DNA of 64,000 bases from Crossaster papposus (Eukaryota > Echinodermata > Asteroidea > Velatida > Solasteridae). Location of the stretch: the NCBI GenBank assembly GCA_037893245.1, contig JBAIAA010000019.1, positions 1,240,001 through 1,304,000 of the forward strand, given 5' to 3'. The position numbers and the translations under genes are program-made. This document shows, piece after piece, positions 14,346-45,530 of this stretch. The notes below the pieces were generated by a model that worked only from the letters and a program-made list of their open reading frames with translations, ran no database searches and had not been told where the DNA came from. Each line of letters begins with the position of its first letter. The first letter of the stretch is position 1.

Positions 14346-14719
14346 GTAGTTGAAAGATTTTTAGTTTGAATATAACGGATAAGGTATAGGGTGGGTTATA
14401 TTCAAGTTTATTTATTATAATTATTATATTACAGATGACGGATTTATCTCTTTTGAGAAGGTGTGGTGGTCCTGAAAAGGACCGTTTGGGTTTGTGGTTA
14501 GAGATCGACTAGTGTTGTCGGTTTTCTTTGATGCCTATTGTTGGTTGATAGGGTCTTGTGAAGAAGCTCATGAGTTGTTTAGCAGTGGGATGATCTTGAC
14601 CCTGGAAGTCTTGAGCAAGCTTTTCTTGGGCTAAGCTCCTGGCGTTGGTCAGCTGGGCGATAGTATTTTTCCAGCGTAATTATTGTAAAGAGCAGCGATG
14701 TTCTTTTCTGGAGATTGCT

Positions 14720-16150: not shown

Positions 16151-17394
16151 AAATAGGCACATTTCTGGATTTGTTGCCTAGACTAACCTAGAGAATTAAA
16201 AAAAAGCAAAATCTGAAAAACTAAAAAGTCGACTTTGTCCGGGTTTCGTTGGAACAGGTCACATTTGCTTCCTACCTTTTTACGATTGATTTAATTACCT
16301 AAACCTTTTTTAGACAAGAATGATTTCCTCAAGAGCGTTATATTCAAAATGGCCGCCGACGCCATTTTGAAAAAAACATAACTTTCAACATTTCAGGTAG
16401 AAATACAAATGAGGTGTCTTGTTCTACCGAGCACATCATCTTTTTCTGTTTGGCGTATCATTTCATACATAAGGTGCGTGTATGCTTGTAACTGTATGCT
16501 TGCTTGTAACTGTATGCTTGTAACTGTATGCATGTACATGTACATGTACATGTACATGTATGGGTACACCAGTGACGACAAGCCTCGACTGCAACTTACA
16601 TTGTATACAATGTATACGCTGTTCAATACCACTATCCCCTAATCCATGGAAAGACTCCATTGGTGATGATTTTGTTTGGTGTGTCAGTTATTTGTTAACC
16701 TAACCTACTGAACCCTGTGTCATTATGCACTGCGTGTACACGTATTAGGTAACGCGTGATATATCCTGAATATATCGCTGATGAAAGGTGGTCATGTTTA
16801 CCTCAACACCACGGCAATCGCTTTTGGTTTTTAAAGTCTGTCTATGAACGTAACCCATCGGAACATGTCATACATTACAAAATAAGACGATATGTACTGG
16901 TAGTCTATATTGCGATCCAAGTACATGTACATGTTAATGTCATTTGACATAAAATGTACAACAAGTTTTTGACAGATTTGCCACTATGTGTATTAATATA
17001 CCCTATAATATTCACCTCTAGTTCATCATTGAAGTCTTTAACATTTAGACTGACTTTAACTCGATACACGGAACAAACACACGAGGAAGATAAATTGGAT
17101 GTGTCAATTAGTATTTGTGAGACAAAATGATACCGTGTCCATAGATCGTTTAATTTCATTACATGTAGGCTATTTGACATTTTAGTCCATGAGGCAGCTA
17201 TAAATTATCAGTACCATTTTGAGGGACGAATCCCAATATGATTTTTGCAATAGAGAAAAATATGAAAAGTACAGCAACATATGATAGACTTCTGACTAGT
17301 TTTAGAAAGATTTTTAACATAAATGTTAAAGTTCTGACAGCCTCTTACAGTCACGCAACGTACGGCTGTTTGAGGAATCGGTCAATGTTGCACA

Positions 17395-17674
17395 TGGGTG
17401 AGTTTTTAGGGTTTAACGCCGTACCAGCATCAATGGCCATATTCACGGCGGGAACAAATTTCATTCAACAATTTGTTATTTCATTCAACAATTAATGTGA
17501 AGAAGTTACAGTTTTAGAGGTGGGAGGAAAACCCCAGAAGAATATCCTGGGAAAAAACCCACGGAGTCAGGCAGGGACTGAAAACCCAATCCACATATTG
17601 GCCCAGGCCGGATTCGAACCCGGGTCATGGTGGTGGAAGGCGAGGAAAGAACCACTACACCAACCCGACTCCCC
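17395..17674 (-). mobile_element. tRNA-derived SINE with 9-bp target duplication
   Basis: On the minus strand the head GGGTTGGTGTAGTGG (A box) and GGGTTCGAATCC (B box) are followed by the GGAAAACC-type body. TGTTGCACA flanks it at 17386-17394 and 17675-17683. The paralogous blocks at 26318 and 43457 have a single TGTTGCACA, i.e. the empty site. Confidence 0.85.
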
Positions 17675-17686
17675 TGTTGCACAGTA

Positions 17687-17822
17687 CACGCTTAAAACTA
17701 TACTGTTGACTCAACCTATTAAGTGTGCGGTCTGTGACTACTCTTGGAATTCCAACTTTTAAAGAGTAATCACGGACCGAACTTAGATATACATTCGATT
17801 CAACACTTTAGTTTTAAGCGTG
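17687..17822. mobile_element. TA-flanked MITE, CACGCTTAAAAC family, copy A
   Basis: CACGCTTAAAACT and AGTTTTAAGCGTG ends with TA on both sides (17685-17686, 17823-17824), as in Tc1/mariner-type insertion. Same position in all three beta copies, so the insertion predates the duplication. Confidence 0.75.
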
Positions 17823-18522
17823 TATAGTTTCATGTGTTAAAGAACTACTAGCCAACAGTAAACAGCCGTAGTTCGATGTGTGCTGTGTCCGTGACATGCT
17901 TACGTTGAGCAGATGAGAAAGGTCAAGATGAAATACTCTGAAATGCCCGAGTGTTTCATGATAGATTGAAAAGTTTAGAGTATTTAACAGGTCAGTAATG
18001 GATTTGGAAGTATTTAGGGCTTGATTTGGTGTGCTTGTATAGGTGTACTTGATTGTATCACCACCGCCGTATGCACTGATTAATGTAACTTCACGTGTGT
18101 GGCTGGTCGCTTCGTATGTTGGTAGTACGTAGGCCTACGCACGGTTGGTTCTTTATTTATGTTTTGGGGTGATATTGTACTAGTTCGGACTCTTCGGACG
18201 GAGACTGGTTATTCTTACTCGGGAATGTGTTGTGTCTGCCTCTATAGTCTAGATTCGGCCTTGTTAGCTGGGCCCATCCATGGAGGTATTTCTATCGAGT
18301 TCTAGCCCCATCTGTACCGTGCTGGGTGAATGGTCTGAACTGCATACGCTGGTGAAATGCTTACGTATGGTCAACTATAATCAGTTGCTATCTCCATAAA
18401 TCCGTGGTCCCACTATTCTACTGTAATATAGATTAATTTGTAATGAATTATATATGTCTCCTGCACTTCTTACACTTCGTCTAGTCCAGAACCAAATGCT
18501 TGGCTAGTGTCGCGTTTGTGGC

Positions 18523-18756
18523 ATGACATCGTTTCGATCTATTTCATGTAAAAAGTATGTCACTGCTGTTGCAAATGGGGAAGAACTCACTTTTGTCCAT
18601 AATTTGTCGGGGTTACTCTTCAAGTGGCGAGCATTTCTTTGCACCACAAACGAAATGTCACAAAAGGAAAGTGAGACAACAATGCAGAACTTGTACGCCC
18701 CAAATATTTGTCTTCATGGGTCATACTACTTAATGCTGCACAACCCGTGCCTTTGA
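18523..18756 (+). other. short open frame shared by two beta copies, coding status doubtful
   Basis: A 77-residue frame (contains VANGEELTFVHNLSG and LYAPNICLHGSYY) is also open at 44350-44586. Differences between copies are mostly replacements plus one 3-base indel, so there is no sign of purifying selection. No family recognised. Confidence 0.2.
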
Positions 18757-19029
18757 GCCCATTCAGCAGGTTTTATCATTGGATACATCTGTCCCAGACT
18801 TATATTATCATAAGAATTGTAGAAGTACATTTACACTAAAAACAAAGGTCTTGACGGTGTGCCTCTGTTTACATCTGTATTCAAATGTGCCCGTCAATTT
18901 GCGCATGAATCATGTTTTACATAAATTTGGTTTAGAGATGACATCAGAGGTCACATAATTCAAAGGCGATCTGACCTGCGACGTCAGTCTTTAAGCAAAT
19001 TTCATGTAAAACACGATGGGTGCGCATCC

Positions 19030-19390
19030 ATAATACTTTGACAAATTAAGTTTTAAAGAGGTCATGAGCAACAGGTGGATACAATATTATGGATTACCAT
19101 GACAAGTTGTTCCAAATTGTACTTTACAATCACTAAATAAACTGTTGATTAGAAATTACAAGTTGTGGTTCATAACTATTTTGTTTGCTATTATTTTCAG
19201 TTTACATTCAGCAGTTTAAATGAGAGAAAATAGGGCATATTAGAGTAATGTATAACTATTAAGTTTATTGTATTTTCTTTTAATATTCAACAGTTTAATG
19301 AGACAAAACTGTTGCTCAGAATTCACAAGTTGTGGTTCATAACCATTTGGTTTGCTTATATTAATTTATTTTAACAAACTAATAATGAGA
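19030..19390. repeat. AAACTGTTGxT/CACAAGTTGTGGTTC repeat
   Basis: Two internal tandem units sharing 'acaagttgtggttcataac'. The same arrangement is at about 45530-45860. Non-coding. Confidence 0.6.
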
Positions 19391-20040
19391 CTAAACTGTT
19401 GATAAAAAACACAATTCAGTATTTACATCTAGGGTAAAGAGTCTCAAAAAAACATTTCTAAGAACAGTTATACGCAATATAATAGTTTGTGCACTGTTTT
19501 GATTTATTTTTGAATATGGCGAACCTGCCCCAACGGGATGGGTGTGGGGTAAGTTGTCGTTCCAAAAAAATGTAGTGGTATTTAGCCAAGACATAGTATG
19601 GCTTTCTAGCCTTTAAATTTACATCTCTAAACCAGTGAGAAAGAACATGGGGCGGACTAGCCACACTCTCCCCTATATTATGGGTTTCCTCCAAGTCTAA
19701 TACTGTTAGTAGTAATTTAAGGATTGCAGTTTTGGTTTTCTTTGATTGGCCCCAACACCCAAACAAAATGTAGTAAGCTGTTCAAAAAAACAGTGCAGAG
19801 AATCGTATAATGCAAATATATTTAAATTAAATAAATGCTTGATTGAATTTTGGTTTTAAGAAACGCCCAGTATGTGGGCTGATATAGGCACTACCATCTC
19901 ATCCTGTGTGGTGTGTGCATCGATAGTCAACCTGTGTGTGTGTGTTCTTGCAGCGATATGTGTGCCCTTACACAGCGCAAAGTTATCACGCACCACTACT
20001 GGTACGCGTGTACAGCACATGGTACCAGTCAGTCCGCAGC
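19391..20040. other. no recognised gene
   Basis: Contains 'ggcgaacctgccccaacggg', a motif of the same type as in 45290-45360. Otherwise nothing identified. Confidence 0.3.
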
Positions 20041-22930: not shown

Positions 22931-23860
22931 TAACCCCCCGAAAAGCCTATCCATCCATTTCTGAAAATTTAAGCAAAAGCAAATGTTGTATACGATCTAT
23001 AAAGGCACTTTGTTTCACATTTCAAATATTCCATGTTTTTTTGTCAAACAACGGAGGGTGCTTTAAAAGTGTGCCTTACTTACATCGCTATACTGTACCG
23101 AATGACAGGGAAATTGAGTCAAGAAATTGTCACATTAACCCGGACACATTTTGTTTACCCCTTGCGAACATTTTGACAACTACTCGCGAGCACTTGGTTA
23201 CTCGCGAGTAATTTCTTTGCGAGTACTCGAGTGGGAAAAATCACTACTCGCCCAGCACTACTTGTTTTTTACGAATTCGTTCATACCAAGTGCGTCAGAG
23301 AAATTCAAGGATAACCAGAAAAAGAGTACGTTTTCATTATCTCATTTGTATTGCCAACGACAGTTCATTTGACTCACGCCTACTCTCTAAAAATAAATAA
23401 AATCATTGACAATTGACAACAATGTCTTCAGTGACAAACAAAAGAAGGGCAATAAAAGTTCCACAGTTAAAGGCGTTCACACACTTGTGTAGGAACCTTC
23501 CATAATTATACTGTGAGCTTTGAACATAAGATTTCCACAAGATGCGAGAAAAAGTTACGGATTGTAGACTTGCACACGTCCAAAGTCCGTTTTATCCTCT
23601 CTTGAAAAAGGGGAACACTTGATGGGTTCAGGAAACTTGCCGCGAATGGTAATCTCTCTCTTATCCTATTCACGTGGAACTCATTTTCAGAGCAGCCATT
23701 ACACCCTTGACACATAAATAATTGCATGAGGAATATTTCCCCTTAAGTTTATTTGTATTTCTCATTTGAGTAAACAGACATTTGTTCGGCCAAGGGAGTT
23801 ACGCAAGCGGAACACATCTCTATACGTGAACTGCGGCACTTGTTGCGTGCGAACAACATT

Positions 23861-23951
23861 TATAAAGGACAAAAGCTGCTTCAACAATAGCTGGATTTAT
23901 TGAGACGTGTCGGTTTGTGTACCGTCTGGCACAGAGTATTACATTAGTCAG
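23861..23951 (+). promoter_or_regulatory. TATA-like box plus possible non-coding first exon (alpha copy B)
   Basis: TATAAAGG at 23861 is followed ~80 bp downstream by a donor-like GTCAG|GTTAGT (23951/23952). Both features are kept at 41052 and 41141. In the older copy at 22540 the donor part is replaced. Suggests a duplicated promoter and leader exon; unproven. Confidence 0.3.
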
Positions 23952-24421
23952 GTTAGTATTTAAAGTTTCGTTCACCTTTTTGGCAGATTTGCTAAACTAT
24001 ACATTTTCGGAAACGTTAGGATACAGTTAACATGAAAACCAATGTTTACATTTGTTGTAAGGTTCTTTGTGGTTCTTTTTTTCACAATTGTGTGCATATG
24101 TCTATGACCCAATAAACATAACAAGAATTTAAAATGTATTATGATATGTTGATGAGATATGACTTAAAGGTCCAAAAATTAAACAAAATCATAATAAATC
24201 ACATGATGACGTCATCATGATGTCACTTTAATTTGTATCCATAACACATTCCGCCATACCTGCATACCAAGGTTAAATCTAATCGGACGTATACTTCCAG
24301 AGAAATAGGCATTAAAACAAAACTACACTTTAATAATGTGACACCCAATGACTTTTGATGTGTCGCGTCACATTAAAGGTCAATTTTTTTCAATGCCCTA
24401 TATCTCTGGAAGTATGAGTCC

Positions 24422-24527
24422 GATTACCATCAATTACAATTACCATCTCTTTCCTCACAGGTACCCATTTACTCCTTGGTGGAGAGCAGCAATGAGTGAC
24501 AAAGTACCTTGCTCAAGGGCACATGCA
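24422..24527 (-). repeat. SINE body fragment
   Basis: The reverse complement reads CTTGAGCAAGGTACTTTGTC and AGTAAATGGGTACCTGTGAG, the same body as the SINEs at 62040 and 63070. Also present at 41596-41698. Confidence 0.75.
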
Positions 24528-26333
24528 TCCAGCTACACACACGTTATGCACACATGTTATGCAAACACGTTGGTGGTAGTATACACAATATTTGAAACAT
24601 GAATCGTAATGATTGGAAATACATATATATATATATTTGTGTTTGAAATAAAGTTGTAAAATTAGTGGCGAATTAAAACTATTACTTTTTCTTCTTTTTT
24701 GTATTTTAGCACAAAAATCTGTTCGTTATAACCACAGAAAGTAAGAGTATTGCTTTATTCACATGCAAGTTGTTCATTATTTGGGGTATGAACCTAAATC
24801 TGTAAAAACTGAAATAACTATCTGTACTTTATGGAATATACCCTTGTATGACGAAATTTGAAGTTTTGCAAGGTAAAAAGAGCAATAAGATCCCTCCGGT
24901 TGTTTTCAAAACCACACAAACTCACAACAGGGAATGACCACATAATATGGTGCTACCACAAACAATTTATCTTATTCCCTGGTTTTACCCTTAGTCCTCT
25001 GAAGTCTAATTACATTTTCCTAAAGGTATTTTATGGTTATTATAAATAATGCAAAGAATTCTGGTTTAATTCGTCTTTGGTCATGGAGGGATGTTTTCCT
25101 CAAAGTAATACAAAAACACGAATAAACGGTTAAGAATGGCTTAACAAATTCGAACTGTTAACTTGTTGTCAAGCAGTCATTTTGTTTTTAATAACTTTTA
25201 TGTGTAGCCCTTAAACAGTAGTGTCATATCCCTAGACCCCGTGACCATTTGCTTCCTACCTTTTTTTACGATTGATTTAATTACCTAAACCTTTTTTAGA
25301 CAAGAATGAGCTCCTCAAGAGCATTATATTCAAAATGGCCGCCGACGCCATTTTGAAAAAAACTTGTTCTACCGAGCACATCATCTTTTTCTGTTTGGCG
25401 TATCATTAACATAAGGCGCGTGTATGCTTGTAACTGTATATGTGTACATGTACATGTACATGTACATGTACATGTATGGGTACACCAGTGATGACAAGCC
25501 TCGACTGCAACTTACATTGTATACATTGTATACGCTGTTCAATACCATTACCCCCCTAATCCATGGAAAGACTCCATCGGTGATGATTTTGTTTGGTGTG
25601 TGAGTTATTGTTAACCTAACCTACTGAACCCTGTGTCATTATGCACTGCGTGTACACGTATTAGGTAACGCGTGATATATTCTGAATATATCGCAGATGA
25701 AAGGTGGTAATTTTTACCTCAACAACATGGCAATCGCTTTTGGTTTTTAAAGTCTGTCTATGAACGTAACCCATCGGAACATGCCATACATTACAAACTA
25801 AGACGATGTGTACTGGTAGTCTCTATTGCTATCCAAGTACATGTACATGTTAATGTCATTTGACATAACATGTCATTTGACATAACATGTACAACATGTT
25901 TTTGACAGATTCGCCACTATGTGTATTAACATATCCTATAATATTCACCTCTAGTTCATCATTGAAGTCTTTGGGTCATAACATTAAGACTGACTTTAAC
26001 TCGATACACGGAACAAACACACGAGGAAGATAAAATGGATGTGTCAATTAGTATTTGTGAGACAAAATGATACCGTGTCCATAGATCGTTTAATTTCCTT
26101 ACATGTATTTGACATTTTAGTCCATGAGGCAGCTATAAATTATCGGTACCATTTTGAGGGACGAATCCCAATATGATTTTTGCAATAGAGAAAAATATGA
26201 AAAGTACAGCAAAATATGATAAACTTATGACTAGTTTTTGAAAGATTTGTAACGTAAATGTTAAAGTTCTGACAGCCTCTTACTTTCACGCAACATACGG
26301 CTGTTTGAGGAATCTGTCAAATGTTGCACAGTA

Positions 26334-26544
26334 CACGCTTAAAACTAAACTGTTGACTCAACCTATTAGGTGTGCGGTCAGTAACTACTCTTTAAAAGTT
26401 GGAATTTCAACCATTAAACTGATGAATTAAACACATTGAGTGTTAAATTTATGAGTTTTATGTATGGAATTCCAACTTTTAAAGAGTATAGTCACTGACC
26501 GAACACTTATATACGTTCGATTCAACACTTCAGTTTTAAGCGTG
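26334..26544. mobile_element. TA-flanked MITE, CACGCTTAAAAC family, copy B (long form)
   Basis: Same ends and TA flanks as at 17687-17822, but 75 bases longer: an inner palindrome around GGAATTCCAACTTTTAAAGAG is intact here and deleted in the other two copies. Confidence 0.75.
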
Positions 26545-26616
26545 TATAGTTTCATGTGTTGAAGAAATTTAACTAGCCAATAGTAAACAGCCGTAGTGCA
26601 ATGTGTGCTGTGTCAA

Positions 26617-27079: not shown

Positions 27080-27598
27080 CCAGGTTTAATCATAATTTTG
27101 AGTGCAAAAGGTTTGAAGTGTGGGATATGTAGGGGTGACTGCATGGAACAACTGCAAAATGGGTTTTCTTAAATTTGGCGAGTGGTGCGTTGGGAGGAGA
27201 GGAGGCACTGACAGACCCCCAAAATCATAATCATAATCTTGAGTGCAAACATAATTTCTTCATGTGTCGAAAGTTTATCGCCGGTGTACTGAATAGGATT
27301 TGTATACTTAAGGTAAATATAATTGGTGCTAAGTACATTTAAGAAGGTCTTTAATTAGTGCTAATTACACGTTTAAATTATAATTACGAGTGAAAAGATA
27401 AAACAAGTGTCAGTGTGTAGCTGACATCTTGCTGGAGCAAAGTTCGCCACTTAAGAAAGTTTAAAGTGTTGCCATCCCTAATTAAGAAAGGGTCAAAGGT
27501 CATCATAATCATTAAACATCGATAATTATAACGTTGAGTGCAACTTGCATTTATGTGTATATCAACAGTTTATCATAGACCGATCACTGATCACAAGC
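27080..27598. repeat. degenerate ~170-bp tandem repeats, left of composite
   Basis: Units carry 'taatcataattttgagtgca' and 'ggtcaaaggtca'. The last (27345-27540) is directly repeated at 34815-35020 on the other side of the composite element. Confidence 0.55.
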
Positions 27599-28264
27599 TT
27601 AAGCCCTGTCACATTTGTCCGAATCGTCACTCCGTTCATGTTCCGAATGTGGAATCGGTGTTTAATCGGTTTGAACTGAACTCAAACGAATTTCCCTGGG
27701 TTTCCCTCGGCTTTCCAACGCTATAATTATACTCGTGTACGTTCGGTGATGCACTGAGGAACTCTGAGAAATTATTGAACCTGTTTAATAATTTTCCGAA
27801 TTGTCGCGGCAACCTCAAAAAGGACGGTATCTGGTATACACACGGAATATGCACGGAATGCACGGAATATACACTGTACTCATTCGTTGCCATTCGTTGC
27901 AATCCGGAATATGTACGGAAGAGTACGGAACAGGCCTCCGATTCCGATCGATAACTGTATGTATTCAGAGTTCATTCCGAACCCACACCATTGTAATGCC
28001 GATCAAAAACGGACGCACCGAATTGGAGGCCACTAAATCCGATGACATAACGCATTACCACGATGTAATACCGCATATTAAACGAACATTATACCATATT
28101 TATTTATAACTATCATAACGAATAAATTCCGGGTCAGCGGGAAATCCAGAGACGGCAAAATTGCTATAAAAGCGGTCGGTCTTGAGATCAATGCATTTGT
28201 CAAAGTTTGGCATGTCCAGTGTGATCGTAGAGGTTCTGAAAATAGACGGGTTGCAATCGGAATA

Positions 28265-28409
28265 TGCCATTTCTTTTCGGTATCGAACGACAGGTGGGCT
28301 CAATAGAGCCGTTACATAACGTTTTCGTTGCGCCCCAATGCTCTTAGCTTATAAAAGCGGGCATTGCATTCAATGCCTTTCTTCTCGGTCTAAGCATTCG
28401 AACCTCGCT
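28265..28409 (+). repeat. direct repeat A1 with promoter elements
   Basis: 145 bp, apparently identical to A2 at 33910-34054. It carries CCAAT (28335-28339), TATAAAA (28350-28356) and a GGCATTG/CAATGCC hairpin (28360-28377) just where transcription would start. Confidence 0.9.
28335..28380 (+). promoter_or_regulatory. CCAAT/TATA promoter ahead of CCHC ORF copy 1
   Basis: TATAAAA lies 133 bp before the ATG at 28489. Expected start near 28380. The same promoter in A2 (TATA at 33995) precedes an unrelated non-coding-looking segment. Confidence 0.6.
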
Positions 28410-28444
28410 CACCATCCATAGTCTCTGTTGCAACTACCTACCTG

Positions 28445-28474
28445 GTGTGGGGTTTTAAGACCAAAACCCCACAC
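28445..28474 (+). promoter_or_regulatory. perfect 12-bp 5'UTR hairpin
   Basis: GTGTGGGGTTTT, loop AAGACC, AAAACCCCACAC, ending 14 nt before the ATG. Repeated at 30539-30568. Possible translational or packaging signal. Confidence 0.75.
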
Positions 28475-28488
28475 TCAACAACTTCAAC

Positions 28489-30009
28489 ATGGACCTGAAG
28501 CGGGATCTGACGGCGTTCCTCCATCTAGAGGAGAACTGCAGCTACACGATGGTGTGTAATGTCATCGGCAAGACGATGGGTGAAGACGGTGTGGCGTGCG
28601 TACAGCAGCTTTCCGATCTACGATGGTGTGTGACGGCCAAGAACACGGAAGCGCGTGACAAGCTCACAGACAACGGGCTTATCATCAATGAGCGAGTGGT
28701 TGAAATCGTCCCTGCCTATAAAAAAGTGTTTTTTGTGAAGATTAAGAACGCCCCCTTTGAGTTAGAAGACAGAGCCATCATCACAGCGCTATCCAACTAC
28801 GGGACCGTCCACGGCATCCGGCGTGGGCACTGGCAGTTACACCCCCTGTGGCAGAACGGTGATCGTCACGCCAGAATGGAACTGAAGCGGGATATCCCAT
28901 CCTATCTACGCATTGGTGGGTTTCAATTAGCCATCCAATACCCCGGTCAGCAGGAGACGTGCCGGCGGTGCGGAGGACCGGGACACAAGGCAGCCCAATG
29001 CCCCACCATGGCCTGCTTTAACTGCGGCGATCTTGGGCACCGCATCGCCGAGTGTAAACAACCGCTCCGCTGTCGGCAGTGCGGCAGGGAGGGACATACG
29101 TCTCGTGGGTGCATGAACTCCTACGCCAACCAAGTGAGAGGACCGCACCAAGACAAACCCAATGCGACACCACCAGCAACTATGTCTTTTCCCCCGCCTG
29201 CGGAAGGTAGAGCTAGTCTTTCGGACGCCCCTACGTTGGTCATCCCACCCGGGATGACAGTCGCCAAGCGTGAGCGTGAGCGTGAGCGTATCCGTAAGGA
29301 CATAAAGGTAGCTATAAAGCAGAAGGACTATAATCTACTCAAAAAGACTATCGAGGAACGTAAGAAAGCCAAGCTAGCTGACACTGAAGGAGAACCCAGT
29401 ACCCCAAGTGAGCACCGATCCACCAAGTCGCCCGACCTCCACGCCGCCAAGTCGCCCGACCTCCACGCCGCCAAGTCGCCCGACCTCCACGCCGCCAAGT
29501 CGCCCGACCTCCACGCCGCCAAGTCGCCCGACCTCCACGCCGCCAAGTCGCCCGACCTCCACGCCGCCAAGTCGCCCAACCTCCACGCCGCCAAGTCGCC
29601 CAACCTCCACGCCGCCAAGTCGCCCAACCTCCACGCCGCCAAGTCGCCCAACCTCCACGCCGCCAAGCCGCCCCACCGTCACACCGCCGCCATTTCGCGC
29701 ACGCTGGAGTGGGCAAAAGCGGTTAGAACATCTAACCCATTCGACGGGCTGGAGGACCAACTGGCCCAGGAAGCGGCCGAGGTGTTCCACGGCAAATCTG
29801 AGGCCACGGATGGGGACTCGGACTCCGGTTCGGACTCGGGTTCGGACTCGGTTTCGGACTCGGGTTCGGACTCCGGGTCCAACACGTCAGTCGTCTCCGT
29901 CGCCAGCGCGGCCAGCATTACCAGTACCGCGAGTAGTAAACGGGGGCACTCCCCGGACGAGTACGACAGAAGGTGGACAATCAAAGAAGGGAAAACGAGA
30001 AAGAACTGA
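28489..30009 (+). CDS. 506-residue CCHC zinc-knuckle (gag-like, ZCCHC3-like) protein, copy 1
   Basis: Likely an RNA- or nucleic-acid-binding gag-type protein of a retroelement. Residues 1-75 and 76-155 resemble the two N-terminal folds seen before zinc knuckles in ZCCHC3-like proteins (KVFFVKIKNAPFELEDRAII, an RRM-like strand and helix). Three CCHC knuckles follow: C158-C161-H166-C171, C176-C179-H184-C189 and C195-C198-H203-C208. Then a basic, charged helix (about 260-298), ten KSP(D/N)LHAA repeats (313-392; six D, then four N), an acidic/Ser tail (SDSGSD) and a basic end. No reverse transcriptase, protease or integrase follows. The ATG is the first after the TATA box and hairpin. Codon use is GC-rich, unlike its AT-rich surroundings. 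A cellular domesticated gene is the alternative, but the setting inside nested repeats favours an element protein. Confidence 0.88.
   Translation: MDLKRDLTAFLHLEENCSYTMVCNVIGKTMGEDGVACVQQLSDLRWCVTAKNTEARDKLTDNGLIINERVVEIVPAYKKVFFVKIKNAPFELEDRAIITALSNYGTVHGIRRGHWQLHPLWQNGDRHARMELKRDIPSYLRIGGFQLAIQYPGQQETCRRCGGPGHKAAQCPTMACFNCGDLGHRIAECKQPLRCRQCGREGHTSRGCMNSYANQVRGPHQDKPNATPPATMSFPPPAEGRASLSDAPTLVIPPGMTVAKRERERERIRKDIKVAIKQKDYNLLKKTIEERKKAKLADTEGEPSTPSEHRSTKSPDLHAAKSPDLHAAKSPDLHAAKSPDLHAAKSPDLHAAKSPDLHAAKSPNLHAAKSPNLHAAKSPNLHAAKSPNLHAAKPPHRHTAAISRTLEWAKAVRTSNPFDGLEDQLAQEAAEVFHGKSEATDGDSDSGSDSGSDSVSDSGSDSGSNTSVVSVASAASITSTASSKRGHSPDEYDRRWTIKEGKTRKN
29427..29666. repeat. 24-bp coding minisatellite in CCHC ORF copy 1
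   Basis: Ten units of AAGTCGCCC(G/A)ACCTCCACG plus CCGCC, encoding KSP(D/N)LHAA. As in the 6.3-kb minisatellite the two unit types are segregated in blocks. Same array at 31521-31760. Long open frames on other strands here are by-products of the repeat. Confidence 0.95.
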
Positions 30010-30505
30010 ACTGTTATCTTGTTCAAATAGTTTTCTGGGTGGTGGGTAAAGTTTAAATTAAGTAAAGCAGATAAGTGTGTTTTTTTTGCGAAAGAGATTC
30101 TGTATTGTCTTTTTTTTGTTGATGGTGGGTATAGAGTTTTCTACATAAAGTCAGTTTTTCTGAATAGTTTACTTGGTTGTGGGTACAGTTTAAGTAAAGC
30201 AGATAAGGTGATTTTCGTGAACGTTTTAATTTAAAGAGATTCTATTCGTGTCTTAAAAGGTTGTATTCTTTTATATGTGTTCACTTAATAGAGTTTTCTA
30301 CATAAAGTCAGTTTTTCTGAATAGTTTACTTGGTGGTGGGTACAGTTTAAGTAAAGTAGATAAGGTGATTTTTCGTGAACGTTTTAATTTAAAGAGATTC
30401 TATTCGTGTCTTAAAAAGTTGTATTCTTTTATTCTTGTATATATGTTCACTTAAGTGACGTGTAAATGTATGGATTATTCGTATGAATAAACCACTTTAG
30501 AAAAA
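30010..30505 (+). other. 3'UTR of unit 1 with internal ~160-bp repeats and poly(A) signal
   Basis: 'gagttttctacataaagtca' occurs at 30134 and 30293. AATAAA at 30486-30491. The unit ends in AAAAA, as an mRNA-derived copy would. Confidence 0.7.
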
Positions 30506-32599
30506 CCATCCATAGTCTCTGTTGCAACTACCTACGTGGTGTGGGGTTTTAAGACCAAAACCCCACACTCAACAACTTCAACATGGACCTGAAGCGGGAT
30601 CTGACGGCGTTCCTCCATCTAGAGGAGAACTGCAGCTACACGATGGTGTGTAATGTCATCGGCAAGACGATGGGTGAAGACGGTGTGGCGTGCGTACAGC
30701 AGCTTTCCGATCTACGATGGTGTGTGACGGCCAAGAACACGGAAGCGCGTGACAAGCTCACAGACAACGGGCTTATCATCAATGAGCGAGTGGTTGAAAT
30801 CGTCCCTGCCTATAAAAAAGTGTTTTTTGTGAAGATTAAGAACGCCCCCTTTGAGTTAGAAGACAGAGCCATCATCACAGCGCTATCCAACTACGGGACC
30901 GTCCACGGCATCCGGCGTGGGCACTGGCAGTCACACCCCCTGTGGCAGAACGGTGATCGTCACGCCAGAATGGAACTGAAGCGGGATATCCCATCCTATC
31001 TACGCATTGGTGGGTTTCAATTAGCCATCCAATACCCCGGTCAGCAGGAGACGTGCCGGCGGTGCGGAGGACCGGGACACAAGGCAGCCCAATGCCCCAC
31101 CATGGCCTGCTTTAACTGCGGCGATCTTGGGCACCGCATCGCCGAGTGTAAACAACCGCTCCGCTGTCGGCAGTGCGGCAGGGAGGGACATACGTCTCGT
31201 GGGTGCATGAACTCCTACGCCAACCAAGTAAGAGGACCGCACCAAGACAAACCCAATGCGACACCACCAGCAACTATGTCTTTTCCCCCGCCTGCGGAAG
31301 GTAGAGCTAGTCTTTCGGACGCCCCTACGTTGGTCATCCCACCCGGGATGACAGTCGCCAAGCGTGAGCGTGAGCGTGAGCGTATCCGTAAGGACATAAA
31401 GGTAGCTATAAAGCAGAAGGACTATAATCTACTCAAAAAGTCTATCGAGGAACGTAAGAAAGCCAAGCTAGCTGACACTGAAGGAGAACCCAGTACCCCA
31501 AGTGAGCACCGATCCACCAAGTCGCCCGACCTCCACGCCGCCAAGTCGCCCGACCTCCACGCCGCCAAGTCGCCCGACCTCCACGCCGCCAAGTCGCCCG
31601 ACCTCCACGCCGCCAAGTCGCCCGACCTCCACGCCGCCAAGTCGCCCGACCTCCACGCCGCCAAGTCGCCCAACCTCCACGCCGCCAAGTCGCCCAACCT
31701 CCACGCCGCCAAGTCGCCCAACCTCCACGCCGCCAAGTCGCCCAACCTCCACGCCGCCAAGCCGCCCCACCGTCACACCGCCGCCATTTCGCGCACGCTG
31801 GAGTGGGCAAAAGCGGTTAGAACATCTAACCCATTCGACGGGCTGGAGGACCAACTGGCCCAGGAAGCGGCCGAGGTGTTCCACGGCAAATCTGAGGCCA
31901 CGGATGGGGACTCGGACTCCGGTTCGGACTCGGGTTCGGACTCGGTTTCGGACTCGGGTTCGGACTCCGGGTCCAACACGTCAGTCGTCTCCGTCGCCAG
32001 CGCGGCCAGCATTACCAGTACCGCGAGTAGTAAACGGGGGCACTCCCCGGACGAGTACGACAGAAGGTGGACAATCAAAGAAGGGAAAACGAGAAAGAAC
32101 TGAACTGTTATCTTGTTCAAATAGTTTTCTGGGTGGTGGGTAAAGTTTAAATTAAGTAAAGCAGATAAGTGTGTTTTTTTTGCGAAAGAGATTCTGTATT
32201 GTCTTTTTTTTGTTGATGGTGGGTATAGAGTTTTCTACATAAAGTCAGTTTTTCTGAATAGTTTACTTGGTTGTGGGTACAGTTTAAGTAAAGCAGATAA
32301 GGTGATTTTCGTGAACGTTTTAATTTAAAGAGATTCTATTCGTGTCTTAAAAGGTTGTATTCTTTTATATGTGTTCACTTAATAGAGTTTTCTACATAAA
32401 GTCAGTTTTTCTGAATAGTTTACTTGGTGGTGGGTACAGTTTAAGTAAAGTAGATAAGGTGATTTTTCGTGAACGTTTTAATTTAAAGAGATTCTATTCG
32501 TGTCTTAAAAAGTTGTATTCTTTTATTCTTGTATATATGTTCACTTAAGTGACGTGTAAATGTATGGATTATTCGTATGAATAAACCACTTTAGAAAAA
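30506..32599 (+). repeat. 2,094-bp tandem unit 2
   Basis: Direct continuation of unit 1, followed by CCATAGG. CCAT is shared by the start and end junctions (28412 and 32600), a 4-bp microhomology. It lacks its own TATA box, because A1 is not part of the unit. Confidence 0.95.
30583..32103 (+). CDS. 506-residue CCHC zinc-knuckle protein, copy 2
   Basis: Same architecture as copy 1. Differs at residue 117 (Ser for Leu) and 287 (Ser for Thr), with one silent change at the Val/Arg region near 31228. The preceding hairpin is intact. Upstream promoter is the 3'UTR of copy 1, so it may be silent or expressed only as part of a longer transcript. Poly(A) signal at 32580-32585. Confidence 0.85.
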   Translation: MDLKRDLTAFLHLEENCSYTMVCNVIGKTMGEDGVACVQQLSDLRWCVTAKNTEARDKLTDNGLIINERVVEIVPAYKKVFFVKIKNAPFELEDRAIITALSNYGTVHGIRRGHWQSHPLWQNGDRHARMELKRDIPSYLRIGGFQLAIQYPGQQETCRRCGGPGHKAAQCPTMACFNCGDLGHRIAECKQPLRCRQCGREGHTSRGCMNSYANQVRGPHQDKPNATPPATMSFPPPAEGRASLSDAPTLVIPPGMTVAKRERERERIRKDIKVAIKQKDYNLLKKSIEERKKAKLADTEGEPSTPSEHRSTKSPDLHAAKSPDLHAAKSPDLHAAKSPDLHAAKSPDLHAAKSPDLHAAKSPNLHAAKSPNLHAAKSPNLHAAKSPNLHAAKPPHRHTAAISRTLEWAKAVRTSNPFDGLEDQLAQEAAEVFHGKSEATDGDSDSGSDSGSDSVSDSGSDSGSNTSVVSVASAASITSTASSKRGHSPDEYDRRWTIKEGKTRKN

Positions 32600-32889
32600 C
32601 CATAGGATTCGTACGTCTTGCCGATATATGTACTATACGATATATACGATATATACGATATATGTACTTTATATTTACTGTACCTTTGCGATAACACTTT
32701 AGGGCCTACTCCTATTAAGTCCATGATGTTCGACGATTAACAGACCAGCAATAGCAATATATTGTCGGCAATCAATTATCCCCAAAATAAGATAGCTCCA
32801 ACCAATATGAAACAGAAACCGTCGGAGAATTCGACGCCTCTCGATCAAGAGCGACGACAACCGCGAACAATTTGAGCACTATGAGAAGT

Positions 32890-33168
32890 TAAAGACTTCA
32901 CCGAATCTGCATTGGGTCTACGGAGGACGACGACGACCCTTCTGCCAAGGACAGCCTTACTGAAGCTTTGGATCTGGTAAAGAAACAACGAAAGCTCATC
33001 AAGTTGCCCGACAGATCCCCTCACGGCTGTTGTACCTTCAAGGAAAATGTCGCCGACAATCTGACTGAAGACTCTGAAGACAAGAAACATCTTCGCAAAG
33101 CCGAAAAGTCGACCACCGCCAAGACAGAACAGTTTTGTTATTATGTAATTCGTAAGTCAATAGGCTAA
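32890..33168 (+). pseudogene. relic of a second gag-like ORF
   Basis: The frame GSTEDDDDPSAKDSLTEALD, then LVKKQRKLIKLPDRS, then LTEDSEDKKHLRKAEKS, is open for about 85 codons after an in-frame stop. The pattern 'KLIKxxDxS...EDSEDxKxLxKAEK' recalls the N-terminal block of gag-like proteins in tyrosine-recombinase retroelements; this is from memory and uncertain. It ends at TAG after KSIG. If right, it is what remains of the parent element's own coding region. Confidence 0.35.
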
Positions 33169-33299
33169 TTTATCACCAGATGAATCGCACCCAACACGGC
33201 AATTTGACTCCCATATTTAATTGTATTAGCACACCCCGTAAATTTAAAGGGAATCCTTAACCTTTGATCTCGATTATTGCAAATCGAGTATCACTTGAT

Positions 33300-33690
33300 T
33301 AGTGCATGCAAATACTGAACTTGGCCCCAAAGAGAACTTTGTTTTCCATCGAGACGCAATTTGTAAGACGGTCAGGCTGATTTTAGCTTTGCATTATCGG
33401 TCGATTGAGTACCGAGTGACATTGAATTGTGTTCCAACATTATTTGGCAATCAAACAAGTTTGTTTAGTCATGGAGCAACTGCTCCATGGTTTAGTCGAG
33501 TATCCCTTGAGTGTTGCATGTAAATACTGAACTTGGCCCCAAGAGGAAACATTGTTTCCTGTTGAGACGCAATTTGTAAGACGTCAAGCTGATTTGTAGC
33601 TTAGCATTATCGGTCGATTGAGTACCGAATGGACACCTGAATTGTGTTCCAAAAGTATTTTGCAATCGAACAAGACTGTTTAGTCAAAAA
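33300..33690. repeat. two diverged ~185-bp tandem copies
   Basis: 'aatactgaacttggccccaa', 'gagacgcaatttgtaagacg' and 'attatcggtcgattgagtac' occur in both 33300-33480 and 33505-33690. Confidence 0.8.
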
Positions 33691-33753
33691 CAAAACAAAA
33701 AACCAACACCCAATTTGACGGCCAATCTAAGTTCTCTTTCTTTGGCGTTTCTC

Positions 33754-33909
33754 ATGAGCGAGTTCCAGTGCTCTACCATCCCAACATGTTCACCAAATCA
33801 TTGTTGTTTTTTTTTCTTTTCTTTCGGTTTATGAACTCTATAAATAGTATTGCATGAGGAAGATATAGAAAAGAAATTAATTTTCTGACGTAGGAACGTA
33901 GGAAGAAAA
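33754..33909 (+). repeat. direct repeat B1
   Basis: 156 bp from ATGAGCGAGTTCCAGTGCTC to GGAAGAAAA, matching B2 (34486-34640) except in a T/C run. It contains TATAAATAG at about 33840. It abuts A2 with no spacer. Confidence 0.9.
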
Positions 33910-34054
33910 TGCCATTTCTTTTCGGTATCGAACGACAGGTGGGCTCAATAGAGCCGTTACATAACGTTTTCGTTGCGCCCCAATGCTCTTAGCTTATAAA
34001 AGCGGGCATTGCATTCAATGCCTTTCTTCTCGGTCTAAGCATTCGAACCTCGCT
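33910..34054 (+). repeat. direct repeat A2 with promoter elements
   Basis: Apparently identical to A1, including the TATAAAA at 33995-34001. After 34054 sequence differs completely from what follows A1. Confidence 0.9.
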
Positions 34055-34485
34055 TGCCCTCCCTCCCGCCCGACTTAAGCCCATAATTAATAGTATTAAC
34101 GGTATTAATAATAATGACTAACCGCGGGGAACAGGGAGTGCACCCTCGATCGGTGTCCTAGGATGCAACCACGTTTCCTCTTAAAAATAAGAGGTTTTTC
34201 GTGGCCTCCGAGTGCCTGCAGAAATGCAGGACCGTGGCACCGATCGCCCTGCCTTATTCACTTTCTATATCGAGACAATTTCCTGTTTTTTGGCGTTGTA
34301 TTGTGTATAGATTTTTTGACCATCATTCCTTCCAAACCTATCGGCAATTAGGACCTGTGTGTCCAACTGATATAAATATATCCATATACATGTACTATAA
34401 GAGATTGTAACTCTGGTAACACACGCAGTTGTGTTCAAAATGTACCCAGATTCCAGGGTTTGTCTAAACAATGTATACAAATAAA
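34055..34485 (+). ncRNA. possible structured transcript downstream of A2 promoter
   Basis: Begins ~55 bp after TATAAAA and ends at an ATAAA-type signal (34480-34485), so it could be a transcription unit of ~450 nt. No convincing ORF. Within 34147-34246 three helices nest: 34147-34155/34238-34246 (CGATCGGTG/CACCGATCG) closes a junction holding 34169-34204 (CCACG...CCTCTTA AAAA TAAGAGG...CGTGG) and 34215-34230 (CCTGCA GAAA TGCAGG). The last is capped by a GNRA-type tetraloop. Hammerhead core bases are missing. Function unknown. Confidence 0.4.
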
Positions 34486-34640
34486 ATGAGCGAGTTCCAG
34501 TGCTCTACCATCCCAACATGTTCACCAAATCATTGTTGTCTTTTTCCTTTTCTTTCGGTTTATGAACTCTATAAATAGTATTGCATGAGGAAGATATAGA
34601 AAAGAAATTAATTTTCTGACGTAGGAACGTAGGAAGAAAA
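34486..34640 (+). repeat. direct repeat B2
   Basis: 155-bp copy of B1. Ends GGAAGAAAA, then the right arm of the outer TIR element resumes at 34641. Confidence 0.9.
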
Positions 34641-34814: not shown

Positions 34815-35020
34815 AAATTCCAATTAAGGTCTTTAATTAGTGCTAATTACACGTTTAATCATAATTACAAGTGCAACAAAAACACCACGTGTCAATGTGT
34901 ACCTTACACTGTAATGGAGCAAAATGTGTCAATTAAGAACATTCCAAATTGTGCCATTCCTTCTTAAGAAATAGTCAAAGGTGACCAGGGTTCCGAATTA
35001 TCGTAATACAGTTGAGTTTT
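34815..35020. repeat. repeat unit matching 27345-27540, right of composite
   Basis: Shares 'aggtctttaattagtgctaa' and 'ttacacgttta' with the left flank. Shows the composite landed in a tandemly repeated family. Confidence 0.65.
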
Positions 35021-40629: not shown

Positions 40630-42411
40630 GCTTATTAAAGGCGCTCACACACTTGTGTAGGAACCTTCCATACTTATACTATGAGCTTTGAACATAAGAT
40701 TTCCACAAGATGCGAGAAGAAGTTACGGATTGTAGACTTGCACATGCACGTCCAAAGTCCGTTTTATCCTCTCTTGAAAAAGGGGAACACTTGATGGGCT
40801 CAGGGTTCAGAAAACTTCCCGCGAATGGTAATCTCTCTCTTATTCTATTCACGTGGAACTCATTTTCAGAGCAGCCATTACACCCTTGACACACAAATAA
40901 TTGCATGAGGAATATTTTCCCTCAAGTTTATTTGTATTTCTCATTTTAGTAAACAGACATTTGTTCGGCCAAGGGAGTTACGCAAGCGGAACACATCTCT
41001 ATACGTGAACTGCGGCACTTGTTAATTGCGTGCGAACACTTTCTAAAAATGTATAAAGGACAAAAGCTGCTTCAACAATAGCTGGATTTATTGAGACGTG
41101 TCGGTTTGTGTACCGTCTGGCACAGAGTATTACATAGTCAGGTTAGTATTTAAAGTTTCGTTCACCTTTTTGGTAGATTTGCTAAACTATACATTTTCGG
41201 AAACGTTAGGATATAGTTAACATGAAAACCAATGTTTACATTTGTTGTAAGGTTCTTTATGGTTCTTTTTTCACAATTGTGTGCATATATCTATGACCCA
41301 ATAAACATAACAACAAGAATTTAAAATGTATTATGATATGTTGATGAGATATGACTTAAAGGTCCAAAAATTAAACAAAATCATAATAAATCACATGATG
41401 ACGTCATCATGATGTCACTTTAATTTGTATCCATAACACATTCCGCCATACCTGCATACCAAGGTTAAATCTAATCTAATAGGCATTAAAACAAAACTAC
41501 ACTTTAATAATGTGACACCCAATGACTTTTGATGTGTCACGTCACATTAAAGGTCAATTTGTTTCAATGCCCTATATCTCTGGAAGTATGAGTCCGATTA
41601 CCATCAATTACAATTACCATCTCTTTCCTCACAGGTACCCATTTACTCCTTGGTGGAGAGCAGCAATGAGTGACAAAGTACCTTGCTCAATGGCACATGC
41701 ATCCAGCTACACACACGTTATGCACACATGTTATGCAAACACGTTGGGGGTAGTTTCCCAATATTTGAAACATGAATCGTAATGATTGGAAATACATATA
41801 TATATTTGTGTTTGAAATAAAGTTGTAAAATCAGTGGTGGATTGAAACTATTACGTTTTCTTCTTTTTTGTATTTCAGCAGAAAAATCTGTTCGTTATAA
41901 CCACAGAAAGTAAGAGTACTGCTTTATTCACATGCAAGTTGTTCATTATTTGGGGTATGAACCTAAATCTGTAAAAACTGAAATTAGTACCTGTACTTCA
42001 TGGAATATACCCTTGTATGACGAAAATTGAAGTTTTGCAAGGTAAAAAGAGCAATAAGATCCCTCCGGTTGTTTTCAAAACCACTCAAACTCACAACAGG
42101 GAATGACCACATAATATGGTGCTACCACAAACAATTTATCTTATTCCCTGGTTTTACCCTTAGTCCTCTGAAGTCTAATTACATTTTCTTAAAGGTATTT
42201 TATGGTTATTATAAATAATGCAAATAATTCTGGTTTAATTCGTCTTTGGTCATGGAGGGATGTTTTCCTCAAAGTAATACAAAAACACGAATAAACGGTT
42301 AAGAATGGCTTAACAAATTCTAACTGTTAACTTGTTGTCAAGCAGTCATTTTGTTTTTAATAACTTTTATGTGTAGCCCTTAAACAGTAGGGTCATATCC
42401 CTAGACCCCGT
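40630..42411. repeat. duplicated block 'alpha', copy C
   Basis: Near-copy of 23480-25242. Includes TATAAAGG (41052), donor-like GTCAG|GTTAGT (41141) and the SINE fragment (41596-41698, minus). Confidence 0.85.
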
Positions 42412-44690
42412 GACCATTTGCTTCCTACCTTTTTACGATTGATTTAATTACCTAAACCTTTTTTAGACAAGAATGAGCTCCTCAAGAGCGTTATATTCAA
42501 AATGGCCGCCGACGCCATTTTGAAAAAAACATAACTTTCAACATTTCAGGTAGAAATACAAATGAGGTGTCTTGTTCTACCGAGCACATCATCTTTTTCT
42601 GTATGCATGTACATGTACATGTACATGTATGGGTACATGTATGATGACAAGCCTCGACTGCAACTTACATTGTATACATTGTATACGCTGTTCAATACCA
42701 TTATCCCCCTAATCCATGGAAAGACTCCATTGGTGATGATTTTGTTTGGTGTGTCAGTTATTTGTTAACATAACCTACTGAACCCTGTGTCATTATGCAC
42801 TGCGTATACACGTATTAGGTAACGCGTGATATATTCTGAATATATCGCAGATGAAAGGTGGTAATTTTTACCTCAACAACATGGCAATCGCTTTTGGTTT
42901 TTAAAGTCTGTCTATGAACGTAACCCATCGGAACATGTCATACATTACAAAATAAGACGATATGTACTGGTAGTCTATATTGCTATCCAAGTACATGTAC
43001 ATGTTAATGTCATTTGACATAAAATGTACAACATGTTTTTGACAGATTCGCCACTATGTGTATTAACATATCCTATACTATCCACCTCTAGTTCATCATT
43101 GAAGTCTTTGGGTCATAACATTAAGACTGACTTTAACTCGATACACGGAACAAACACACGAGGAAGATAAAATGGATGTGTCAATTAGTATTTGTGAGAC
43201 AAAATGATACCGTGTCCATAGATCGTTTAATTTCATTACATGTATTTGACATTTTAGTCCATGAGGCAGCTATAAATTATCAGTACCATTTTGAGGGACG
43301 AATCCCAATATGATTTTCGCAATAGAGAAAAATATGAAAAGTACAGCAAAATATGATAGACTTATGACTAGTTTTTGAAAGATTTTTAACATAAATGTTA
43401 AAGTTCTGACAGCCTCTTACAGTCACGCAACGTACGGCTGTTTGAGGAATCTGTCAAATGTTGCACAGTACACGCTTAAAACTAAACTGTTGACTCAACC
43501 TATTAAGTGTGCGGTCAGTGACTACTCTTGGAATTCCAACTTTTAAAGAGTAGTCACTGACCGAACTTAGATATACGTTCGATTCAACACTTTAGTTTTA
43601 AGCGCGTATAATTTCATGTGTTCAAGAAATGTAACTAGCCAACAGTAAACATCCGTAGTTCAATGTGTGCTGTGTCAGTGACATGTTTACGTTGAGCAGA
43701 TGAAAAAGGTCGAGATGAAATACTCTAAAATGCCAGAGTGTTTCATGATAGATTGAAAGGTTCAGAGTATTTAACAGGTCAGTAATGGATTTGGAAGTAT
43801 TTAGGGCTTGATTTGGTGTGCTTGTATATGTGTACTTGATTGTATCACCACCGCCATATATGCACTGATCAATGTAACTTCACGTGTGTGGCTGGTCGCT
43901 TCGTATATTGTTAGTACGTACGCACGGTTGGTTCTTTATTTTTCCCGTGAACAAAACAACATAACTTGGCTTTTATTTAAATCTATATGTTTTGGGGTGA
44001 TATTGTACTAGTTCGGACTCTTCGGACGGAGACTGGTTATTCTTACTCGGGAATTTGTTGTGTTTGCCTCTATAGTCTAGATTAGGCCTTGTTAGCTGGG
44101 CCCATGCATCCATGGAGGTATTTCTACCGAGTTCATGGCCCCATCTGTACTCTGGGTGAATGGTCTGAACTGCATACGCTGGTGAAATGCTTACGTATGG
44201 TCAGCTATAATCAGTTGCTATCTCCATAAATCCGTGGTCCCACTATTCTACTGTAATATATATTAATTTGCAATGAATTATATATGTCTCCTGCATTTAT
44301 TACATGACTAGTCCAGAACCAAATGCTTGGCTAGTGTCGCGTTTGTGGCATGACATCATTTCGATCTTTTTCATGTAAAAAGTGTAATGTCACTGCTGTT
44401 GCAAATGGGGAAGAACTCACTTTTGTCCATAATTTGTCGGGGTTACTCTTCAGGTGGCGAGCATTTCTTTGCACCACAAACGAAATGTCCCAAAAGGAAA
44501 GTGAGACAATAATGCAGAACTTGTACGCCCCAAATATTTGTCTTCATGGGTCATACTACTTAATGCTGCACAACCCGTGTCTTTGAGCCCATTCAGCAGG
44601 TTTCATCATTGGATACATCTGTCCCAGACTTATATTATCATACGAATTGTAGAAGTACATTTACACTGAAAACAAAGGTCTTTGCACTAT
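42412..44690. repeat. duplicated block 'beta', copy C
   Basis: Colinear with 16254-18870 but without the SINE at 17395. Contains the MITE at 43471-43606 and the short open frame 44350-44586. Confidence 0.85.
43471..43606. mobile_element. TA-flanked MITE, CACGCTTAAAAC family, copy C
   Basis: Same ends as the copies at 17687 and 26334, with one change in the right end (AAGCGCG). Confidence 0.7.
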
Positions 44691-45530
44691 ACTGTCCATA
44701 GTTGAGAGTGATAATGGTTTGGCAGGCTGTAGTACAGAGCAGAGGAGGTATACAATTACAAGTACAAGGGAACAACTTATTACCAAATCACGTGTTTATC
44801 AGATCACGTGTTTGTGCATTTTTTTGTGTGACAAAAGCAGAAAATACATGAAGCGTTGCCGAACCGAAGTCAGATGTACGTAAACGCAACAAAATCATAT
44901 TTAATTATCAAGAAGACCAACAATTACTTAATTTTGTTTTCTATGAAAACTCACATTTTCTGTGCTGTGAATTATGTACTCACAGTAATTTTATTGAAAG
45001 ACGTGTGCACCTTTTTATATATCAGATAATGTAAGCCATTTAGATATCTTTGTCATTGTGATCTAATAGTCACAGGTTTTTTTTTAAAATAAAACCTGTT
45101 TTACATGTCACGTAAGTCGTTTCTTGCATCGATAATAGTGTATAAACCCCAAGACATAAAAAAGATGGTTTTATAGTGGCTGTCATTTAGAACAAACTTT
45201 CTAAAATAATTATGCAGTTATGAACTCTGTTTACTGTGTTAATGATGCATACGACGTGGTAAAACACAAGATGAGCCCTTGGGCACGTTCTCCCTGTATA
45301 AAGTGGGGCAGGTTCGCCCTGTGGCGGACTCACTTCACGATGGTGGGCGGACTTGCCCCATCAAATTTATATGCCTATTATTTATTTAAACAAACTACCT
45401 TTTTATATTTTAAGGTGAAATAAACACATATAGAGAGATATTCTTTTATTTATTAATGTCAGGTTGCAAAACTAGCACTCGTTTACATACTATGTTAATG
45501 AAACCAGAATACTTTGATAAATAAAGTTTT
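44691..45530. other. no recognised gene
   Basis: Contains 'gggcaggttcgccctgtggc' and 'gggcggacttgccccatc', low-copy repeat motifs. Nothing coding supported. Confidence 0.3.

Follow-up and report, generated by a model that had tools for sequence, protein, structure and literature searches.

A probable non-autonomous tyrosine-recombinase retroelement of PAT layout in Crossaster papposus, with a site-specific LINE nested inside it

The stretch of 64,000 nucleotides considered here, hereafter the window, comes from the asteroid Crossaster papposus (GenBank assembly GCA_037893245.1, contig JBAIAA010000019.1, positions 1,240,001 to 1,304,000 of the forward strand). Between positions 28264 and 34639, on the plus strand, two direct repeats, A and B, each occur twice in the order A1-body-B1-A2-middle-B2, and the body encodes zinc-knuckle proteins. 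Is this a single mobile element or two joined end to end, and to which element do the zinc-knuckle genes belong? We propose, with a probability of about 0.9, that the locus is a retroelement of the tyrosine-recombinase (YR) class and of PAT layout, internally deleted and non-autonomous, inside which a site-specific long interspersed nuclear element (LINE) of L1/Tx1 type is nested.

The split-repeat element, its family and its fuller relatives

The order of the repeats given in the original prediction, and the direct abutment of B1 on A2, are borne out by repeat comparison. A1 (28265-28409) and A2 (33910-34054) are identical at 145/145 positions, as had been stated; B1 and B2 were likewise held to be equal, which is true of their near-identity and not of strict equality (98.1% identity, 156 vs 155 bp, one indel). 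We place the boundaries of the whole element one base away from those first given, at 28264-34639, since elements end in ...GAAGAAA at loci whose right flank starts with a base other than A, and since the base preceding TG is part of A in the relative L037. On this footing A1 occupies 28264..28409, B1 33754..33908, A2 33909..34054 and B2 34486..34639, all on the plus strand. The window copy has the left triplet AAT, reads ATGCC...GAAGAAA and is followed by the right flank AGCAACTT, with sharp ends that it has in common with other loci. The TATAAAA at 28350, within A1, is a predicted promoter.

A search of the genome (1.02 Gb in 1841 contigs) returned many further A...B elements and B/A junctions, for which the original prediction had proposed to look. 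The exact size of the family is not fixed, as 40 of the 278 first-look candidates for A were scored; these best 40 all show at least 99% identity. For the B/A junction, scoring of 40 among 244 candidates gave 40 places with at least 98% identity over all 60 bases, and a further piece of 33 bases. Complete A1-body-B1/A2-middle-B2 elements, besides that of the window, occupy 13 of 20 regions of 10 kb fetched around A copies. Four other regions (L018, L020, L025 and L028, the last two with common flanks) hold a solo A-middle-B of 725 bp, and the remaining three (L023, L024 and L027) hold A1 and a LINE, with no complete 3' part within the fetched stretch. L035 is a solo A-body-B, and two trimers take the forms body/body/middle (L041) and body/middle/middle (L042). 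Because A and B recur in like arrangement at many loci, a chance origin of the layout is excluded; the architecture recurs at many unlinked loci and is that of a PAT-type element, not an accident, and A and B are not independent dispersed repeats. The two A repeats of one element differ from each other at 0-2 positions (mean 0.5, n=16), compared with 0.9 between elements, and its two B repeats at 0-8 positions (mean 1.9, n=17), compared with 5.2 between elements. One further copy (L033, 1134-2670) begins at A position 107, 21 bp past the start of TATAAAA, and has an intact B end; it could derive from RNA begun at the predicted start.

The contents of a less reduced element are illustrated by three relatives, L037, L038 and L043. 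In L037, A1 (769-931) equals A2 (4078-4240) at 99% over 163 nt and B1 (3946-4077) equals B2 (5766-5897) at 100% over 132 nt, with B1 and A2 adjoining. Gag and a reverse transcriptase (RT; RVT_1, 3e-16) lie between A1 and B1, while an open reading frame (ORF) of 351 aa between A2 and B2 matches Cre recombinase (E 6e-6) and contains an HSLR motif with a Y further on. This YR frame is not inverted, and it has at least 117 matches in the genome (116 of 1473 candidates scored), many of them stop-free. L043 is a nearer relative of the window element: its A1 and A2 match the window A at 78-82% over about 50 bp, its B1 matches the window B at 77% over the full length, and its gag region matches the window relic at 67% of nucleotides. 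Its parts follow one another as A1, gag/RT part, B1/A2 and then, downstream of A2, a YR whose frame is interrupted; the YR frame enters a minisatellite, and another insertion follows A2. L038 provides a further RT (RVT_1, 5e-21) and a gag. A CCHC motif is visible in the gag of all three relatives, with Pfam values (0.013 in L037, 0.004 in L038) that fall below the cut-off.

Remnants of these parts can be recognised in the window. A decayed PAT gag, in two frames (32838..33111, plus strand), is detected by tblastn against the L038 gag (60% amino acid identity over 65 aa, E 4e-20) and by the DNA match to the L043 gag region; the zinc-finger motif is not retained. A peptide from window 32.9-33.1 kb has at least 150 matches in the genome (150 of 463 candidates scored), some of them in longer gag ORFs. 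Positions 79-201 of the middle (34133-34255) match, at 80% identity, sequence lying upstream of the YR ORF in L043, and the middle matches L037 at 72% over 72 bases. Given where gag, RT and YR lie in the fuller relatives, the body may be read as a deleted gag-pol part and the middle (34055..34485, plus strand) as a shrunken, deleted YR part. No RT is visible in the window copy, as originally noted: there is none among its ORFs, and the RTs of L037 and L038 find no counterpart in it. A tyrosine recombinase is also absent from this copy. A layout of Ngaro or VIPER type, with the internal repeats downstream of YR, was rejected, as the internal B1/A2 junction lies upstream of the YR ORF in both L037 and L043.

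The middle has a further property of its own. Its segment at 34055-34290 shows strong RNA folding (z -3.9, 0/200 shuffles as good), and most of its core, which includes GGAGTGCACC and CCACGTTTCC...TTTTTCGTGGCC, also occurs in the leaders of L043 and L037; it may be a regulatory RNA that precedes the YR gene. Within the body, towards its 3' end, lies an old tandem duplication (33284..33686, plus strand, 86% by self-comparison).

One element or two, and how it inserts

The original prediction offered, as an alternative, a head-to-tail dimer of a 5.6-kb and a 0.73-kb element. On such an account, A-body-B and A-middle-B are independent cassettes with common ends, one of which integrated as a circle at the end of the other; solo A-middle-B copies at L018, L020 and L025/L028, the solo A-body-B at L035 and the trimers L041 and L042 all speak for it. 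Random joining, however, predicts a middle followed by a body about as often as the reverse. We examined this polarity from the coordinates of the 40 scored junctions (of 244 candidates), a procedure to which a body is visible only if a gag relic is listed close to it. Such a relic lies no more than 2.5 kb upstream of 38/40 junctions, and at one of these 38 (C398:309027) a middle comes directly before, as read in L042; altogether the junction is preceded by a body in 37/40 cases and by a middle in 1/40, with C800 and C321 (2/40) unassigned. A body comes after one junction (C704), and by coordinates the order middle-B/A-body occurs at 0/40 scored junctions. L037, moreover, has the same split layout with YR in its second part, so that its A2-middle-B2 is the YR compartment of one element and a dimer is not needed to explain the window. 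We therefore regard independent cassettes as unlikely and favour a single element, whose apparent dimer would be normal PAT anatomy, each unit being able to stand alone as well. The absence of the middle-B/A-body order among the 40 junctions is a sign that only the newly closed B2/A1 junction may be used for integration.

Copies whose ends were read start with ATGCC after the flank triplet and end with GAAGAAA (GTAGAAA in L020). The left triplet has a central A at 22/24 loci, L028 being omitted as a duplicate of L025; from base composition the chance of this is 1e-10 for 21/22 and, calculated by hand, about 3e-10 for 22/24. The corresponding position in L037 reads GAG. When the joined flanks of 21 elements (including L037, L025 and L028) were compared with all fetched DNA, paralogous empty sites were found for 2/21, L015 and L017; the window locus is without such a paralogue. 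That of L015 (92%) reads CTGTAATATACACG, unbroken at the joint. At L017 a tRNA-Ser(aga) is re-formed when the flanks are joined, as happens with a tRNA in none of the other elements; it belongs to a tandem tRNA array, several members of which are continuous across the joint. Neither the L015 joint nor the restored L017 tRNA shows a duplicated or missing base, which leaves 2/2 empty sites without a target duplication; a duplication of 3 bp was rejected, the right flank not repeating the left triplet. The AAA junction triplet and the N-A-N target fit recombination of a circle through a 3-bp junction, presumably by the YR.

A plausible course of events can be assembled from these parts. The outer element would be transcribed from the TATA box in A1, its RNA would be copied by the RT of a relative, and its ends would be rebuilt from the internal B1/A2 copy; closure into a B2/A1 circle would then allow the YR of a relative to integrate it, joining the AAA triplet to a genomic triplet, usually N-A-N. 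The original suggestion of a non-autonomous relative of PAT-type elements agrees with the recurrence of A, B and B/A, with the fuller split-repeat relatives and with the lack of a target duplication at 2/2 loci. An element of long-terminal-repeat or Penelope-like type with partial terminal repeats could look superficially alike, with its long identical repeats and tandem layouts, but neither empty site has a target duplication, and L037 combines split repeats with a Cre-like recombinase; we consider this alternative exceedingly improbable.

Several observations weigh against a PAT-layout YR element moved in this manner. The full relative that the original prediction called for was found in part: L037 unites RT, YR and split repeats, but no helper was found with A/B ends nearly identical to those of the window. 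The nearest is L043, in which no B2 was found and the YR frame is interrupted; the second A was not found in L038. An RNase H match in L038 (0.0012) is below the Pfam curated cut-off, and L037 has none; matches to a methyltransferase (MT; Dam) in L038 (0.0038) and L037 (0.071) are also below the curated cut-off. The L037 YR ORF is without a Pfam match, and its PHROGs integrase match is marginal (0.032). A circle with two equal B/A junctions predicts that half the inserts should read middle-then-body, and 0/40 do. L035 (GTA) and L039 (AGT) break the N-A-N rule, one copy of the L017 tRNA array is short of a base at the joint, clean insertion was checked at two empty sites only, and neither a circle nor an RNA has been observed.

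A LINE that apparently homes to the end of A1

Two gag-like genes had originally been credited to the element itself. The element's own gag is the decayed one at 32838-33111, and comparison of the sequences identifies the zinc-knuckle genes of the window as the ORF1 of a site-specific LINE lying between A1 and this relic. On the plus strand, LINE copy 1, an ORF1-only copy of L1/Tx1 type ending in TTTAGAAAA, spans 28416..30504, and copy 2, 99.8% identical to it, spans 30510..32598. Each has an ORF1 of 506 aa (28489..30009 and 30583..32103); scanning of the former revealed three CCHC zinc knuckles, and the latter is the same save for single substitutions. The motif ACCAT, on the same strand, precedes copy 1 (28411..28415, the 5' copy of the LINE target duplication), separates the copies (30505..30509) and follows copy 2 (32599..32603, the 3' copy), after which comes AGGATTC. 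Together the copies make up a tandem duplication of 2094 bp, whose units differ at 4 of 2093 aligned bases; from this likeness and from the exact match of A1 to A2, the window copy looks recent. A 24-bp minisatellite within ORF1 (SPDLHAAK repeats; 29408-29700 and 31502-31790) varies in copy number by locus. An insertion of 75-82 bp at LINE position 856 in L012, L015 and L027 was considered as an intron lost through RNA and set aside, as it has no GT..AG ends and encodes residues.

Longer copies (L023, L027 and L040), with an endonuclease and/or RT, point to the affiliation of the LINE. In L023 an ORF with Exo_endo_phos (2e-18) comes after the zinc-knuckle ORF, with zf-RVT (3e-7) further on, and the LINE of L040 contains RVT_1 (1.6e-36). 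Three copies make up the array at C251 (L027, L040): the outer two are ORF1-only, and the long one between them has ORF1, endonuclease and RT; this long copy is the one full-length copy read, and its frames are broken. Among solved structures, LINE-1 endonuclease and ORF2p come nearest to the endonuclease and RT of the LINE. Among the matches listed (138 of 5431 candidates scored), the RT of the family is present at two places, C251 and C783, the latter at 98% over 178 aa. In sister families, with RT identities of 79, 75 and 71%, some ORF2 frames run to about 1120 aa. Over the first 250 codons of ORF1, pN/pS is 0.25 in 9 of 12 copies, three early-stop copies being omitted and long and ORF1-only copies pooled; the ratio shows that the LINE lineage has been under constraint, which need not hold for the ORF1-only copies. 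Some sister RTs (46-48%) are listed in frames of up to 37,810 codons, on contigs C1455, C1563, C1571, C1033, C424 and C541, as if they had inserted into stop-free satellite arrays; masked runs of N could mimic this.

The target can be read by comparing filled and unfilled elements. LINE-free copies at L009, L013, L016 and L019 read CACCAT/AGGATTC (the slash marking the joint), and LINE-free elements in general read GCTCACCAT/AGGATTC with small variants; LINE-filled elements typically read CACCAT/CCATAGTCTC...TTTAGAAAA/ACCATAGGATTC. In arrays, ACCAT is repeated between LINEs, with variants at C251. A search with the 5' end (40 of 256 candidates scored) gave 40 rows, of which 18 are A-LINE junctions, 10 are LINE ends without A and 12 are A ends without a LINE; among the 10 without A, seven lie directly behind another LINE and three (C59, C208 and C246) downstream of an A. 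A search with the 3' end, in which 40 of 70 candidates were scored, found 30 LINE 3' ends: 23 join the element and seven join the next LINE, with none elsewhere; the rest of the 45 rows from this search comprise six pieces within 0.6 kb of listed LINEs and nine that are element-only. We suggest that the LINE endonuclease would cut CACCAT/AGGATTC directly past A1, the proposed target being, as a duplex, CACCATAGGATTC. Target-primed reverse transcription would duplicate ACCAT and leave a usable site at the 3' side of the LINE, which would explain the head-to-tail stacking. The ORF1-only copies of the window were probably mobilised by full-length relatives.

Might the LINE instead have inserted once, and then been carried and multiplied by the outer element? 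In favour of this, all LINE 3' ends found lie at one position, and some LINE-bearing hosts cluster, L014 and L017 for example. LINE-bearing and LINE-free hosts are nevertheless mixed in each of three host groups, and parsimony over 21 host bodies (8 of them LINE-bearing) gives 6 changes of LINE presence. Divergences of LINE and host also disagree: hosts L012 and L023 differ by 0.003 and their LINEs by 0.061, L014 and L017 by 0.011 and 0.109, and L012 and L040 by 0.036 and 0.008, with the LINE distance greater than the host distance in 19/28 pairs of LINE-bearing loci. Long and ORF1-only LINEs, furthermore, share the site, even within the C251 array. A single insertion thus appears very unlikely, and repeated insertion at the same site is the reading we retain. 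To be counted on the other side are the 9/28 pairs in which the LINE distance does not exceed that of the host, a host tree that is weakly resolved (10/18 inner branches open), the assignment of C59, C208 and C246 to an element, which depends on an A lying on the same strand at 0.4, 1.7 and 10 kb upstream, and a detection limit by which LINE places below about 86% identity escape the searches.

A cooperative relationship may also be imagined, in which the outer element has lost its gag and has its RNA packaged instead by the zinc-knuckle protein of an ORF1-only LINE, with the A1 promoter driving transcription, the outer element supplying landing sites for the LINE in return. The polarity described above would then mean that the rebuilt terminal B2/A1, and not the identical internal B1/A2, is competent for integration. 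We hold this to be very unlikely.

Known systems, significance and other features of the window

Nematode-form Pat1 and Kangaroo are described as having internal repeats between MT and YR (PMC4157794). PAT elements of nematode form, in the DIRS order, resemble ours in the split A1-B1/A2-B2 arrangement and in the internal repeats between the pol part and YR; the Pat1-like gag zinc knuckle may have its counterpart in the CCHC motif of the fuller relatives. The window copy differs from PAT in being without RT and YR and in having a gag relic only; the orientation of YR in L037, not inverted, separates it from Kangaroo. The model reported for DIRS1-like elements has circles recombine with the genome through a 3-bp junction, with no target duplication (PMC3266345). 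SIRE, a short non-autonomous VIPER derivative, corresponds to the A2-B2 part of VIPER, its origin being left open (PMC6681497). It matches the solo A-middle-B copies and offers a precedent for solos. Distinct from SIRE are the two-unit form, which inserts cleanly at the two loci examined, and the presence of both kinds of solo.

The known target-specific LINEs insert into rRNA, snRNA and tRNA genes, into satellites and, more rarely, into transposons; Tx1L targets Tx1D, and the Tx1 ORF1 carries CCHC knuckles. HAL1, the ORF1-only derivatives of LINE-1 in mammals, resemble the LINE copies described here in that ORF1 is kept and ORF2 is gone; ours differ in their site specificity, their zinc-knuckle ORF1 and a C-terminal repeat region in which they depart from the long-copy ORF1. 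LINEs of the Tx1 clade share with ours an endonuclease of APE (apurinic/apyrimidinic) type, an ORF1 with CCHC knuckles and a single target inside a mobile element; the target in our case is a YR retroelement, ORF1-only derivatives are common, and membership of the clade is putative. Transposons are listed among the LINE targets, and Tx1 is named as a target-specific clade, in PMC4640811. Our literature search, which covered titles and abstract openings and few subscription journals, turned up no paper on a LINE with a YR retroelement as its target.

The novelty would lie in the confinement of the LINE, as far as detected, to a YR retroelement: one parasite seems dependent on the copy number of another. 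The seemingly recent window copy, with its LINE, could serve to test target reading by APE LINEs. The outer family, for its part, informs the poorly known integration of PAT-type elements through the absence of a target duplication (two loci), the central-A triplet, the solos and the trimers, and its polarity is one that simple circle models do not predict.

Other features of the window were noted in passing. A tracrRNA match in A (E 0.98) was taken as chance, and scans of viral contigs with ORF1 and with the A pattern returned no relative. A direct repeat of 78% flanks the element (27344-27500 and 34826-34982); a role as the termini of some larger element was considered and discounted, its two copies being too diverged. 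A Histone 3' UTR stem-loop (Rfam, 39.9 bits) lies on the minus strand at 14442-14488. Three related stretches of up to 3 kb (16262-19397, 23467-26615 and 40635-45857), mostly about 89-99% alike in pieces, apparently represent another repeat family, and a local duplication with 89-95% identity joins 49999-50912 to 51568-52452.

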